A stretch of 64,000 nucleotides of DNA. Source: Peloplasma aerotolerans. Lineage in GTDB: Bacteria > Bacillota_I > Bacilli_A > Acholeplasmatales > Acholeplasmataceae. Positions 4,031 to 52,763 of the stretch are shown here, in pieces (within the stretch, counting starts at the first letter, position 1; each line of letters opens with the position of its first letter). Under the pieces are notes generated by a model. It was not told the DNA's origin, searched no databases, and was given only the letters and a program-made list of their open reading frames with translations. The position numbers and the translations under genes are program-made. The DNA lies in the NCBI RefSeq assembly GCF_030012175.1, contig NZ_JASCXW010000002.1, positions 62,001 to 126,000 of the forward strand, given 5' to 3'.

Positions 4031-5629
<1,599 letters not shown>

Positions 5630-5646
5630 TTACCCTCCTACTTTTT

Positions 5647-5691
5647 AAAAGAAAAGAATCTCCTGTAATTAGGAGACTCTTTGGTGTGCCC
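5647..5691 (-). promoter_or_regulatory. pyrG leader: GGGC start and attenuator hairpin
   Basis: The predicted transcript starts with GGGC (5691 down to 5688), six nucleotides after the -10. About ten nucleotides later comes a 9-bp hairpin (arms GAGTCTCCT and AGGAGATTC, loop 6 nt, one G-U pair) followed by TTTTCTTTT. The 5' arm holds the pyrimidine run TCTCCT, which extra G residues added at the 5' end could pair with. In B. subtilis pyrG, low CTP causes reiterative G addition at a GGGC start, and the G-run disrupts the terminator. The same layout here makes that mechanism likely; it is inferred, not shown. Confidence 0.75.
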
Positions 5692-5697
5692 TTATCT

Positions 5698-5725
5698 ATT
5701 ATATCAAAAGATGGTTGAAACACAA
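5698..5725 (-). promoter_or_regulatory. pyrG promoter
   Basis: On the minus strand TATAAT (5698-5703) has a moderate -35 TTGTGT (5720-5725) with a 16-bp spacer. The first C after GGG is the fourth transcribed base, as required for CTP-dependent reiterative initiation. Confidence 0.75.
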
Positions 5726-5742
5726 CATATATTTAATTTTTT

Positions 5743-6357
5743 TCAGATTTCTTTTATGAATACATTATTGTTTTCGATAAAACCCATTTTCTTTAAATAT
5801 GCTTGGTGTTTTATGTTTCCAGGATGTGTTGTTAGTTTTTTAACACCTAATTTTGAAAAAAAGTCTTTTTTATCTTCATAGAGAAACTGTCCTACTTTAA
5901 AATCACGATATGTTGGAGTAACATAATCAATAAGAATTTTTAATGTATGCTTATCTTCATATTCACCTACAACTACACCTGCGGGTACTGTGTTTCTCAA
6001 AATAAATAATTTTAAATATTGATCATCTTCTAAATGATCATCAACATTCATAAAACTTTTCATGTTATCGCGATAAAAACTCATAAAATACTTAAAATAT
6101 TCTGTGTCTTTTTTCATTTCAATCAGTGTAAAGTAATCTTTTTTTGTATACATTTGAAATAAGTAGTAAACATTGATCATTGCAATACCGGTATTCATAA
6201 CTCCTACTGGGATTGCTCCAATTAAAAATCCATATACAGCAAAAACTAGAGACCCAAACAAGTTGATCCATCTCAACCTCTTTACAGAACTCATGAGCAA
6301 TGACACCAGAACAATAAAAGATGCCACATAACCTAATATTTCATAAAAATTTTCCAT
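5743..6357 (-). CDS. YgjV-like membrane protein fused to a GNAT-like domain
   Basis: Residues 1-75 hold about three hydrophobic segments with the YgjV-family pattern (GYVASFIVLVSLLMSSV, then LRWINLFGSLVFAVYGFLIG). Residues 90-204 look like an acetyltransferase of the GNAT fold, with a TPTYRDFKVGQFLY segment resembling motif A and a C-terminal HQAYLKKMGF typical of the family end. The acceptor is unknown, and the pyrophosphate-binding loop of GNAT is not canonical, so activity is uncertain. It has its own promoter (minus strand TTGATT at 6405-6410 and TATAAT at 6383-6388) after the rpoE terminator. The start has a GGTGGGG ribosome-binding site. Confidence 0.75.
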   Translation of the reverse strand: MENFYEILGYVASFIVLVSLLMSSVKRLRWINLFGSLVFAVYGFLIGAIPVGVMNTGIAMINVYYLFQMYTKKDYFTLIEMKKDTEYFKYFMSFYRDNMKSFMNVDDHLEDDQYLKLFILRNTVPAGVVVGEYEDKHTLKILIDYVTPTYRDFKVGQFLYEDKKDFFSKLGVKKLTTHPGNIKHQAYLKKMGFIENNNVFIKEI

Positions 6358-6487: not shown

Positions 6488-7042
6488 TTACTCATCATAC
6501 ATATCTTCATAATCGTCCATGATTTCGTTATAATCGTCTTCGTCATAATCATCGTCGAATTCAATTTCAACATCATCATCTACATCGTCATCATCTGTTG
6601 ACTTCGTTGGTAGATCAATTTCGATATAAGCTTTTTCTTCCTTGATTTCTTCGTCGACTTCTTCATCTTCTTCATCATCATCTTTTTCAACTTTCACCTT
6701 AACTTCTTCTTCCTCTTCTTCAAGAGTATACTCAGTAAAGTCTAAGTCTTCTTCGACATCTTCTTCAATATCTTCAGCTTGAACAAAGGCGAAACCGTCT
6801 TTATCCCATAATTCTAAATTTCTTTCTTTCAAATCCCATTGGTCATCACCACAATACACAAACTTTGCGCTTTGTGTTATATCCATGTAAAGTTGCGTCA
6901 ATTTGTCAACATCTTCTAGTGAAATTTCTTTGATTTCAGCAACACTTTGAATTAATTGTTGGATGGTCATTGGCTTCTTGCTGTCTTTTAATAGAATTTC
7001 TGCTACATCAAGCATTGCTAATGATTTCATTTTATCGCTCAT
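6488..7042 (-). CDS. rpoE: DNA-directed RNA polymerase delta subunit
   Basis: Delta binds core RNA polymerase, raises initiation specificity and helps recycling. The N-terminal ~90 residues match the HARE-HTH fold of delta (the run from LDVAEILLKDSKKPMT to DQWDL). The C-terminal ~90 residues are an almost uninterrupted Asp/Glu tail, the disordered acidic region of this subunit. Length (184) is normal. Bacillus subtilis also has rpoE close to pyrG and fbaA, which supports the call. This is the Gram-positive delta subunit, not a sigma factor of the same name. Confidence 0.95.
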   Translation of the reverse strand: MSDKMKSLAMLDVAEILLKDSKKPMTIQQLIQSVAEIKEISLEDVDKLTQLYMDITQSAKFVYCGDDQWDLKERNLELWDKDGFAFVQAEDIEEDVEEDLDFTEYTLEEEEEEVKVKVEKDDDEEDEEVDEEIKEEKAYIEIDLPTKSTDDDDVDDDVEIEFDDDYDEDDYNEIMDDYEDMYDE

Positions 7043-30127: not shown

Positions 30128-31519
30128 CTAGAATTCACAATTTTTTGGTGTTCTTGGAAATGGTATAACATCTCTAATGTTTTCAACACCAGATAGATAC
30201 ATAATCAATCTTTCAAATCCAAGTCCATACCCAGCGTGAACACAACCACCGTATCTTCTTAAATCAGTGTACCATTTAAGATCCTCTTTAGGTATGTCCA
30301 TTTCTTCCATACGCTTCATGAGCATATCATAGCGTTCTTCTCTTTGAGAACCGCCAATTAACTCGCCACTACCTGGAACTAAAAGATCCATAGCTGCAAC
30401 CGTTTCATTATCATCATTCATTCTCATGTAAAATGCTTTTATACCTTTAGGCCAATCTGTTATAAAAACAGGGCAATCAAAATGTTTTTCAGTCAAGTAT
30501 TTTTCGTGTTCAGTATTAATATCTTGTCCATGCTTTGGTAGGTTTTCAAATTTAGTATTGCTTTTAATAAGGATGTCAATCGCCTCTTTATGCGTAATTT
30601 TAACAAACGGTTGTGTTAAGACTTTCAACAGTCTATCCGTCAAACCTGGCTCGACAAACTTATCGAAAAACACCATTTCCTCAGGAAGTTTTTCAAAGAC
30701 ATATTTAATGATGAATTTGACCATATCTTCAGCAACATCCATATTTTTATTTAAATCTGCAAATGCCATTTCTGGTTCAATCATCCAAAACTCTGAAGCA
30801 TGTCGAGTTGTATTAGAGTTTTCAGCTCTAAAGGTTGGCCCAAATGTATAAACATTCTTAAATGCTAATGCAAAAGCTTCAGCCTCTAATTGACCGGTTA
30901 CGGTTAAGTTTGTTCTTTTTCCAAAGAAATCTTTTTTGTAATCAACTTGTTGATCTTCATTCATCGGTACTTTGTCTAGCGGAAGTGTAGTGACGTTAAA
31001 CATTTGCCCTGCACCTTCCCCATCGTTACCGGTAATAATTGGCGTATGAGTGTATATAAAACCTTGACTTTGGAAAAACTCATGAACTGCAAATGCAGCT
31101 ACGCTTCTTAATCTAAAAACAGCATGAAAAAGATTGGTGCGCATTCTTAAATGCGCAACCTCTCTTAAAAATTCTCTAGAGTGTCTTTTTGGTTGTATTG
31201 GATAATCTTCTGGAGAATCACCTAGCAATTCAATATAGGTTGCTTTAACCTCAATAGGCTGTTTTGCATCAGGGGTTAAAATTAACTCACCTTTAACTAG
31301 GATTGAACTTCCGACTCTTATTTTTTGAACATCCTTAAAATTTTTCAACTTTGAGTCTTCATAAACCACTTGAACACTGTCAAAAAATGTTCCATCATGA
31401 AAATTGATAAACCCAAACTCTTTTTGAGCTCTATTGTTTCGTACCCAACCAAACAATGTTATTTCTTTCCCTATATATTTTTCTGTTGTTCTAAACAATC
31501 CTTTAACTGTTGTTTCCAT
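30128..31519 (-). CDS. asnS: Asparaginyl-tRNA synthetase
   Basis: It charges tRNA-Asn. The 463 residues have an N-terminal OB-fold anticodon-binding domain (KEITLFGWVRNNRAQKEFGFINFHDG) and a class IIb catalytic core. Motif 2 is in FRAENSNTTRHASEFWMIEPE (split around residue 235). Motif 3 is GYGLGFERLIMYLSG near the C-terminus, ending in the IPFPRTP signature of AsnRS. The residues distinguish it from AspRS, and the T-box specifier AAC agrees. It is controlled by a T-box leader upstream. Confidence 0.97.
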   Translation of the reverse strand: METTVKGLFRTTEKYIGKEITLFGWVRNNRAQKEFGFINFHDGTFFDSVQVVYEDSKLKNFKDVQKIRVGSSILVKGELILTPDAKQPIEVKATYIELLGDSPEDYPIQPKRHSREFLREVAHLRMRTNLFHAVFRLRSVAAFAVHEFFQSQGFIYTHTPIITGNDGEGAGQMFNVTTLPLDKVPMNEDQQVDYKKDFFGKRTNLTVTGQLEAEAFALAFKNVYTFGPTFRAENSNTTRHASEFWMIEPEMAFADLNKNMDVAEDMVKFIIKYVFEKLPEEMVFFDKFVEPGLTDRLLKVLTQPFVKITHKEAIDILIKSNTKFENLPKHGQDINTEHEKYLTEKHFDCPVFITDWPKGIKAFYMRMNDDNETVAAMDLLVPGSGELIGGSQREERYDMLMKRMEEMDIPKEDLKWYTDLRRYGGCVHAGYGLGFERLIMYLSGVENIRDVIPFPRTPKNCEF

Positions 31520-31556: not shown

Positions 31557-31650
31557 AAAAGCCCCTAGATTAATATCTAAGGACGTAATTATACGCGGTA
31601 CCACCTTAGTTCTAGAATAAAATTCTAGCCCTTAAAACCTTTAACGCAGG
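31557..31650 (-). repeat. 94-nt segment shared with the serS T-box (inverted copy)
   Basis: From CCTGCGTTAAAGG through the terminator stem this segment matches 51368-51461 with about six differences. The two copies are in opposite orientation on either side of oriC. Confidence 0.85.
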
Positions 31651-31786
31651 TGTACGGATAGTTCTACTTTCCAGTGGATTTCTTCTATCTCTCAGAGTGT
31701 TTTTCATGATTTGGTTTTGATTGGGCTTACACCATCCCCAACTCGCTAACAAAACGATAAATCATTACTCTCTCGTCATTGATTTC
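31557..31786 (-). ncRNA. T-box riboswitch of asnS, specifier AAC
   Basis: The conserved T-box core AAGGTGGTACCGCG is on the minus strand around 31592-31605. The terminator stem CCTTAGAT/ATCTAGGG plus T-run lies at about 31557-31583. Stem I begins near 31775. Aligning the base of stem I with that of the serS leader puts the specifier at AAC (31701-31699), an Asn codon, followed by A. Uncharged tRNA-Asn is expected to stabilise the antiterminator and raise asnS expression. Confidence 0.93.
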
Positions 31787-31792
31787 CTATTT

Positions 31793-51245: not shown

Positions 51246-51251
51246 ATAATT

Positions 51252-51470
51252 AACACGTATAAGAGACTAGTAATCAATGCTATTTGTCTAGAGAGTTCGC
51301 GGAAGGTGAAAGCGAATCAAAGAGCTTGATGAATCTACTCTTTAGTGATGCTAACCACATCCGTATGCCTGCGTTAAAGGTTTTAAGGGCTAGAATCTAA
51401 TTCTAGAACTAAGGTGGTACCGCGTATATTTACGTCCTTAGATGATAATCTAGGGACTTTTTATTATTTA
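51252..51470 (+). ncRNA. T-box riboswitch of serS, specifier UCU
   Basis: The core AAGGTGGTACCGCG is at 51411-51424 and the terminator stem CCTTAGAT/ATCTAGGG at about 51436-51456 plus a T-run. At the base of stem I the 3' strand reads GAA-TCT-ACTCTT (specifier 51334-51336), directly comparable with GAA(A)-AAC-ACTCT in the asnS leader. UCU is a serine codon, matching the downstream gene. Confidence 0.93.
51368..51461 (+). repeat. 94-nt segment shared with the asnS T-box
   Basis: This copy covers stem III, the antiterminator and the terminator and matches the reverse complement of 31557-31650 with about six differences. Confidence 0.85.
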
Positions 51471-51485
51471 AAGGAGGAAAGTAAA

Positions 51486-52763
51486 ATGTTGGATTTAAGA
51501 TGGGTAATAGAAAATATTGAAGAGGTTATTAAGAAACTATCAACTAGGAATGCTGATTTTTCTTATTTGAATGAGTTGGTTTTATTACAAGAACAAAGAA
51601 AAATAGTAATTGCAGATGTTGAAACCAAAAAAGCATTAAGAAACACGCAATCAAAGAAAATTGGTGAACTAAAAAGAAATAAACAAGATGCATCACATTT
51701 TCTCGATGAAGTTGCTAGTCTCGGAGATGAAATCAAAGATTTAGACGATCAATTGAAAAATATTGAAGATAAAATCTTCAATATACTTTCGGTTACACCA
51801 AATATACCTCATGAAAGTACACCAATTGGAAAAGATGAAAATGATAATATTGAAATCAAAAAGGTTGGGACACCAAGAGTTTTCAATTTTCCTATTAAAG
51901 ATCATATTGAGCTGGGAGAGAAACTTAACATACTAGACTTTGAACGTGCGGCTAAAATAACAGGAGCAAGATTTATTGTTGATAAGGGTTTAGGAGCAAG
52001 ATTAGAACGTTCTTTAATTCAATTCATGATGGACTTGCATGCACATCAACATGGGTACACTGAAATTATTCCACCATACATTGTAAATGAAAAAAGCATG
52101 TTTGCAACAGGGCAATTCCCTAAATTTAGAGAAGATTCATTTAAAGTTACAGCCGGAGAAAATGTTTGGTATTTGAATCCCACAGCAGAAGTTCCAACGA
52201 TTAATTTACATCGTGATGAAATTATAGATGGCAATCAACTACCTTTTAATTACTGTGCATTTACAACAGCGTTCCGCTCAGAAGCTGGATCTGCTGGACG
52301 TGATACTAGAGGTATTTTAAGACAACATCAATTCAATAAGGTCGAACTGATTAAGTTTACAAAACCTGAAGAATCATATCAGGAACTTGATAAAATGTTA
52401 TTACATTCAGAAGAAGTTTTAAAACAATTAGAGATTCCTTATCGTATTGTCACTTTATCAACTGGTGATTTAGGTTTTGGAATGGCAAAAACATATGATC
52501 TTGAAGTATGGTTGCCAGGACAAAATATGTATCGAGAAATAGGATCCATTTCAAATGCTGAAGATTTTCAAGCTAGACGTGCAAACATAAGATTTAAAAG
52601 ATCAAAAGAGAGTAAAACTGAATATGTACATACACTCAATGGTTCAGGACTTGCCGTAGGTAGAACGATGATTGCTATTATGGAAAACTATCAAAACAAA
52701 GATGGAACAATCACTGTCCCTAAAGTATTAATTCCTTATATGAAAGTTTCCGTTATTGAATAA
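51486..52763 (+). CDS. serS: Seryl-tRNA synthetase
   Basis: The 425-residue enzyme starts [19 protein letters not shown], with the N-terminal coiled-coil arm (about 30-100) that binds the tRNA-Ser variable arm. Class II motif 2 ([25 protein letters not shown] split around residue 265) and motif 3 ([19 protein letters not shown] near 385) follow. The ATG at 51486 has AAGGAGG. An in-frame GTG at 51414 lies inside the T-box core and is not a real start. Confidence 0.97.

Follow-up and report, generated by a model that had tools for sequence, protein, structure and literature searches.

The pyrG leader and its neighbourhood

The stretch of DNA analysed here (the window, 64 kb) carries pyrG on its minus strand, within the gene order rpoE, a GNAT/membrane protein gene, pyrG and fructose-bisphosphate aldolase. 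The gene directly behind the leader encodes CTP synthase, as judged from its match to the TIGR00337 equivalog (2e-236), and its product is 95% identical to PyrG of 'Tenericutes bacterium M17C-02', with the next kin named Acholeplasmataceae. The gene between rpoE and pyrG encodes an N-terminal membrane part (a weak Imp-YgjV match) fused to a GNAT acetyltransferase domain; in some relatives rpoE and pyrG appear to be adjacent. Elsewhere in the window there are two T-box leaders (RF00230), which score 122 and 118 bits against Rfam. The first (31576–31788, minus strand) precedes a gene that reads as asparaginyl-tRNA synthetase (30128–31519, minus), and the second (51249–51442, plus strand) one that reads as seryl-tRNA synthetase (51414–52763, plus).

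Read 5′ to 3′, the pyrG leader consists of a weak -35, an extended -10, AGATAA, GGGC, ACACC, the hairpin, UCUUUU, AGGAGGG and the ATG at 5626 (Table 1). The preliminary description had proposed a layout of TATAAT, six nucleotides, GGGC, a hairpin with TCTCCT in its 5′ arm and a T-run, and every one of these elements is present on the minus strand of the window. The TTGTGT hexamer scores under the threshold of our promoter scan and, with a -35 this weak, promoter function would depend on the extended -10. A general terminator scan called the hairpin terminator-like and, folded together with the start, it reaches -17.2 kcal/mol (z = -4.22), a value that none of the shuffled sequences equalled.

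Table 1. Positions of the pyrG leader elements and adjacent genes in the window.
Feature	Positions	Strand	Remarks
rpoE, RNA polymerase delta	6488–7042		
Membrane part/GNAT gene	5743–6357	-	between rpoE and pyrG
-35-like TTGTGT	5720–5725	-	16-nt spacer; 3/6 bases match TTGACA
Extended -10, TGA TATAAT (TGATATAAT)	5698–5706	-	kept in relatives
TATAAT of extended -10	5703–5698	-	
AGATAA, between -10 and GGGC	5697–5692	-	6 nt
GGGC	5688–5691	-	presumed +1 to +4, predicted G-slippage site; 6 nt past -10
Terminator hairpin, AAAGAGUCUCCU-AAUUAC-AGGAGAUUCUUU	5682–5653	-	12 bp
Terminator 5′ arm, AAAGAGUCUCCU (DNA AAAGAGTCTCCT)	5671–5682	-	UCUCCU half could pair with a slipped G run
Terminator 3′ arm, AGGAGAUUCUUU	5653–5664	-	
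T-run of intrinsic terminator, TCTTTT	5647–5652	-	
Shine-Dalgarno, AGGAGGG	5633–5639	-	not within hairpin
pyrG, CTP synthase	4031–5626	-	presumed regulated gene; 531 aa; PF06418 1.8e-127; TIGR00337 2e-236

No Rfam family matches the pyrG leader; the best sub-threshold match scores 30 bits where the cut-off is 55. The exact motif TATAAT-N6-GGGC occurs once in the 64-kb window. With the spacing relaxed to five to seven nucleotides there are three occurrences in the 2.04-Mb genome, compared with five for a reversed control, so that the chance of such a site falling within a given 150-nt leader is about 1e-4; at the other two sites (L349 and L350) the 200 nt inspected showed no obvious attenuator. 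On the sequences compared, the retention of start, spacing and hairpin in relatives is a stronger argument against chance than the rarity of the motif.

Conservation of the start and of the terminator arms

We collected 253 distinct pyrG leaders from named relatives and from a sample taken across the window's class, in which families and genera carry code labels (f5, f6, f12, g10 and so on). A start motif, counted only where a -10 was present, was found in 193 leaders: 119 have GGGC and 74 have AGAGC at the corresponding place, while 60 have neither. The start lies exactly 6 nt past the -10 in 102/119 GGGC and 66/74 AGAGC leaders, and this common distance indicates that both starts share one register. 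The kin belong to Acholeplasmataceae, Anaeroplasmataceae, Izemoplasma and Haloplasma, and the suggestion that the pyrG attenuator anatomy extends to a Mollicutes-like lineage therefore holds. A further 20 leaders from the window's order comprise 17 with GGGC, one with AGAGC and two without either motif, both of the latter belonging to genus g10. No sampled member of the small-genome families f6 and f16 has a start motif, and the attenuator seems, from these leaders, to have been lost in the sampled f6 and f16 and in g10 (0.6–0.9 Mb). In pyrG of several f6 genomes, TGA serves as a sense codon.

The two terminator arms are not equally constrained. Across the survey, 111/116 GGGC and 62/70 AGAGC leaders have a 5′ arm whose loop-near half is rich in pyrimidines, as against 48/164 background terminators (other terminators at the same loci). 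Among the 18 leaders of the window's own family GGGCA is invariant, and in the helix it is the 3′ arm that drifts, via wobble pairs, with the 5′ arm kept: at six loop-near positions there are four minority letters in the 5′ arm versus 13 in the 3′ arm, and U19 of the 5′ arm is invariant with a partner that is A in 10 leaders and G in eight. This asymmetry is what would be expected if the 5′ arm had a second partner, of which a terminator alone has no need. Covariation of base pairs in the hairpin did not exceed that of shuffles (a single pair with changes on both sides; 253/500). Because the -10, the start and the hairpin lie close together, part of the conservation could perhaps reflect constraint on promoter and terminator alone.

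Taken on its own, the hairpin is a good terminator, and intergenic intrinsic terminators are common; it might accordingly serve the upstream gene, or act as a constant damper of pyrG, and lie behind a promoter by chance with no sensing of CTP. We consider this very unlikely. The conserved unit opens with its own promoter, 3′ of the upstream gene's stop codon, its best-kept letters are GGGC and the 6-nt register, the 3′ arm has drifted against a stable 5′ arm, and 5′ arms so rich in pyrimidines are unusual among background terminators.

A predicted CTP-sensing attenuator

The pyrG attenuator of Bacillus subtilis was reportedly described by Meng, Turnbough and Switzer in 2004 as working by CTP-sensitive reiterative transcription. 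Two later papers likewise place B. subtilis pyrG under CTP-sensitive reiterative-transcription attenuation (PMC4403831, PMC4448216), and one of them states that four extra 5′ Gs give ~325-fold more pyrG mRNA (PMC4403831). Reiteration of G at the pyrG start has been detected by 5′-end sequencing in Streptococcus agalactiae (PMC4448216) and S. pyogenes (PMC6431027), with a terminator ahead of pyrG reported for S. agalactiae (PMC4448216, PMC6431027). The window leader resembles the B. subtilis attenuator in the gene concerned, the GGGC start, the terminator ahead of the gene and a pyrimidine-rich 5′ arm that Gs could cover. It differs in its occurrence in a far, Acholeplasmataceae-like lineage, in its conserved arm AAAGAGUCUCCU and in its promoter, where an extended -10 accompanies a weak -35; slippage of the B. 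subtilis type is a prediction for the window leader, as is the addition of G at the start that has been shown in the two streptococci.

The capacity of the 5′ arm for an alternative pairing was assessed in a folding model. With the 3′ arm absent, the transcript's own 5′ end occupies 42% of the seven loop-near positions in the 5′ arm when unslipped, and 99% once four Gs have been added. At full length the terminator wins at equilibrium whatever the addition (probability 0.95–0.97), and thus the switch must act during transcription, with the antiterminator forming first.

The window leader is very probably a CTP-sensing reiterative-transcription attenuator of the B. subtilis pyrG kind, as predicted from its sequence. 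Every sequence feature of the B. subtilis attenuator that we checked is present and relatives keep exactly those features, which supports the Bacillus-type reading first offered. The anatomy, the conservation and the pairing potential are observed in the leaders themselves; initiation at GGGC, slippage and the response to CTP are predictions by analogy with the Bacillus and streptococcal precedents. In the proposed mechanism, the level of CTP would be read through the start of the transcript. Polymerase would start at GGGC and, with CTP ample, C would be added at +4, elongation would continue and the terminator hairpin would form ahead of pyrG. With CTP low, the enzyme would pause after GGG, the RNA would slip back and extra Gs would be added; this G run would pair with UCUCC(U) of the 5′ arm once that arm is made, and the terminator would then fail to form in time, allowing pyrG to be read.

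Regulation by some other signal (a protein, a small molecule or the choice of start site), in which the 5′ purines would serve as a fixed antiterminator, is also very unlikely: the leaders have no further conserved domain and no Rfam family, little is conserved between families except the start and the arm, and the base following the purines is C. In favour of such regulation, the start site of Escherichia coli pyrC is chosen by CTP, and in some AGAGC leaders (L255) CUCU pairs with the 5′ end even before any slippage, so that either a fixed antiterminator or the selection of a start site is possible there.

AGAGC leaders and a two-nucleotide slippage proposal

The replacement of GGGC by AGAGC, in the same register, affects 74 of the 193 motif-bearing leaders and had been missed in the preliminary description. 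AGAGC is found in all motif-bearing leaders of f5, f12, f13 and f22, in most of those of f17 and in one of f7, and within the window's own family in L021 (strain zrk7, a complete genome) and L379 (genome G033). The AGAGC leaders (L021, L379 and those of f5, f12, f13, f17 and f22) have no GGG run before the C, which sets them apart from the B. subtilis type; they are not GGGC-type members, and may work alike. Despite lacking a G run, they keep the register, the following C and the pyrimidine arm.

The letter before the motif is A in 74/75 cases for GAGC and in 90/118 for GGGC, and in 16/16 leaders of f22 (AGAGC) versus 7/23 of f14 (GGGC). The near constancy of this A before GAGC indicates that the unit is AGAG, with two copies of AG ahead of the C; some f12 leaders have three copies (AGAGAGC). 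Downstream, all 74 AGAGC leaders contain at least four alternating C/U letters (CUCU/UCUC). The mean length of the alternating stretch is 4.69 in AGAGC leaders, compared with 3.28 ± 0.07 in dinucleotide shuffles, and 3.68 in GGGC leaders, compared with 3.21. In some f12 leaders the CUCU element extends into the hairpin loop, where pairing of the stem would not preserve it. Exchanging G6 for (AG)3 in energy calculations gave a relative shift of ~3.1 versus 1.6 kcal/mol in favour of G, which agrees with the AG idea; as a discriminator these swaps were set aside, since G pairs with any pyrimidine and they hardly separate the alternatives.

Six f12 leaders (L254, L255, L264, L266, L268 and L269) have an AGAGC start and no evident terminator ahead of pyrG, and in these CUCUC can pair with the Shine-Dalgarno sequence GAGGUG or similar. 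Their sequences suggest a translational version of the switch. Two further leaders depart from both start types. L232 (G173, f12; AAGAGAGUCAC) has U where the other leaders have C after the AG repeat, and GUUCUC further on; a start of this kind would, on the same reasoning, sense UTP, or else it would be a decayed copy. In L161 (G002, f5) TATAAT-ATTGA-GGGT is accompanied by a strong terminator arm (CUCUCUCU), and it may be read as a mixed form having a G run then U and an AG-type target arm.

Weighed against decayed slippage, a fixed antiterminator and start-site choice, we lean, by a little, towards the view that AGAGC leaders sense CTP by two-nucleotide (AG)n slippage, a change from the one-letter GGGC form that would have taken place in several branches of the class. 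When CTP is scarce, polymerase halted between AGAG and C would slip back two nucleotides and append (AG)n. These added repeats would find a partner in the CUCU/UCUC of the terminator arm or, for some f12 leaders, in an element that masks the ribosome site. On this view the repeat that slips and the stretch it pairs with would have evolved together, with CTP unchanged as the signal sensed. We infer that AGAG after a two-nucleotide slip keeps two template base pairs, equal to GGG after a slip of one. The chemistry would not be exotic, because bacterial starts that reiterate a two-nucleotide unit (AU) have been recorded; among the reiterated starts of S. agalactiae, AU accounts for 15% (PMC4448216). 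These starts resemble the present proposal in showing that two-nucleotide slippage during initiation is within the reach of a bacterial polymerase, and are unlike it in that the repeat is AU and is not tied to CTP or pyrG. A literature search returned no description of an AG-type pyrG start, which is weak evidence as most subscription papers lay outside its scope.

Alternatively, the AGAGC leaders could be decayed GGGC leaders that no longer slip, which we regard as a substantial possibility that falls short of an even chance. GAGC arises from GGGC by a single G-to-A change, and an A already stands ahead of GGGC in many leaders. Decay fits poorly with the retention of AGAGC in exact register across whole families, with the almost universal A before GAGC and its lengthening to AGAGAGC in some, with a CUCU/UCUC element in every AGAGC leader, or with the fact that this element faces the Shine-Dalgarno sequence instead of a terminator in several f12 leaders.

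The history of the switch bears on the two-nucleotide proposal as well. On PyrG trees there are about seven changes (7–8) between GGGC and AGAGC, at least five of them forced by well-supported branches. One change falls within the window's own family, where L021 and L379 group together with support of 98 in a clade of 30 whose other members have GGGC. In the arms of these two, UCUCUU and CUCUUC take the place of the UCUCCU found in most GGGC kin; a C-to-U change in the arm would weaken pairing to G and create the U needed by the A of (AG)n. Across ~8 independent pairs, the AGAGC member has the longer alternating stretch in 5.4 and the shorter one in 0.1 on average. A test of correlated evolution leans in the predicted direction (median sign p ~0.06) and is underpowered with 5–8 independent switches; restricted to supported branches it comprises five pairs only, too few for significance.

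Discussion

The window element joins the known CTP-sensing pyrG attenuators, at the strength of prediction given above, and the AGAGC leaders would form a new variant of them if slippage were shown. They would then be, to our knowledge, the first case of two-nucleotide reiteration with a role in gene control. For the cell-wall-less branch of the Firmicutes, in which few controls of nucleotide synthesis have been described, the window leader would mean that a protein-free, polymerase-based sensor of CTP has been carried over from the setting of Bacillus and Streptococcus. Should the AG variant prove true, the class would offer a naturally occurring series in which the unit of slippage and its target change in pairs, and on which it could be tested directly which starts slip, by how many letters, and how a sensor can alter its chemistry yet keep its signal.
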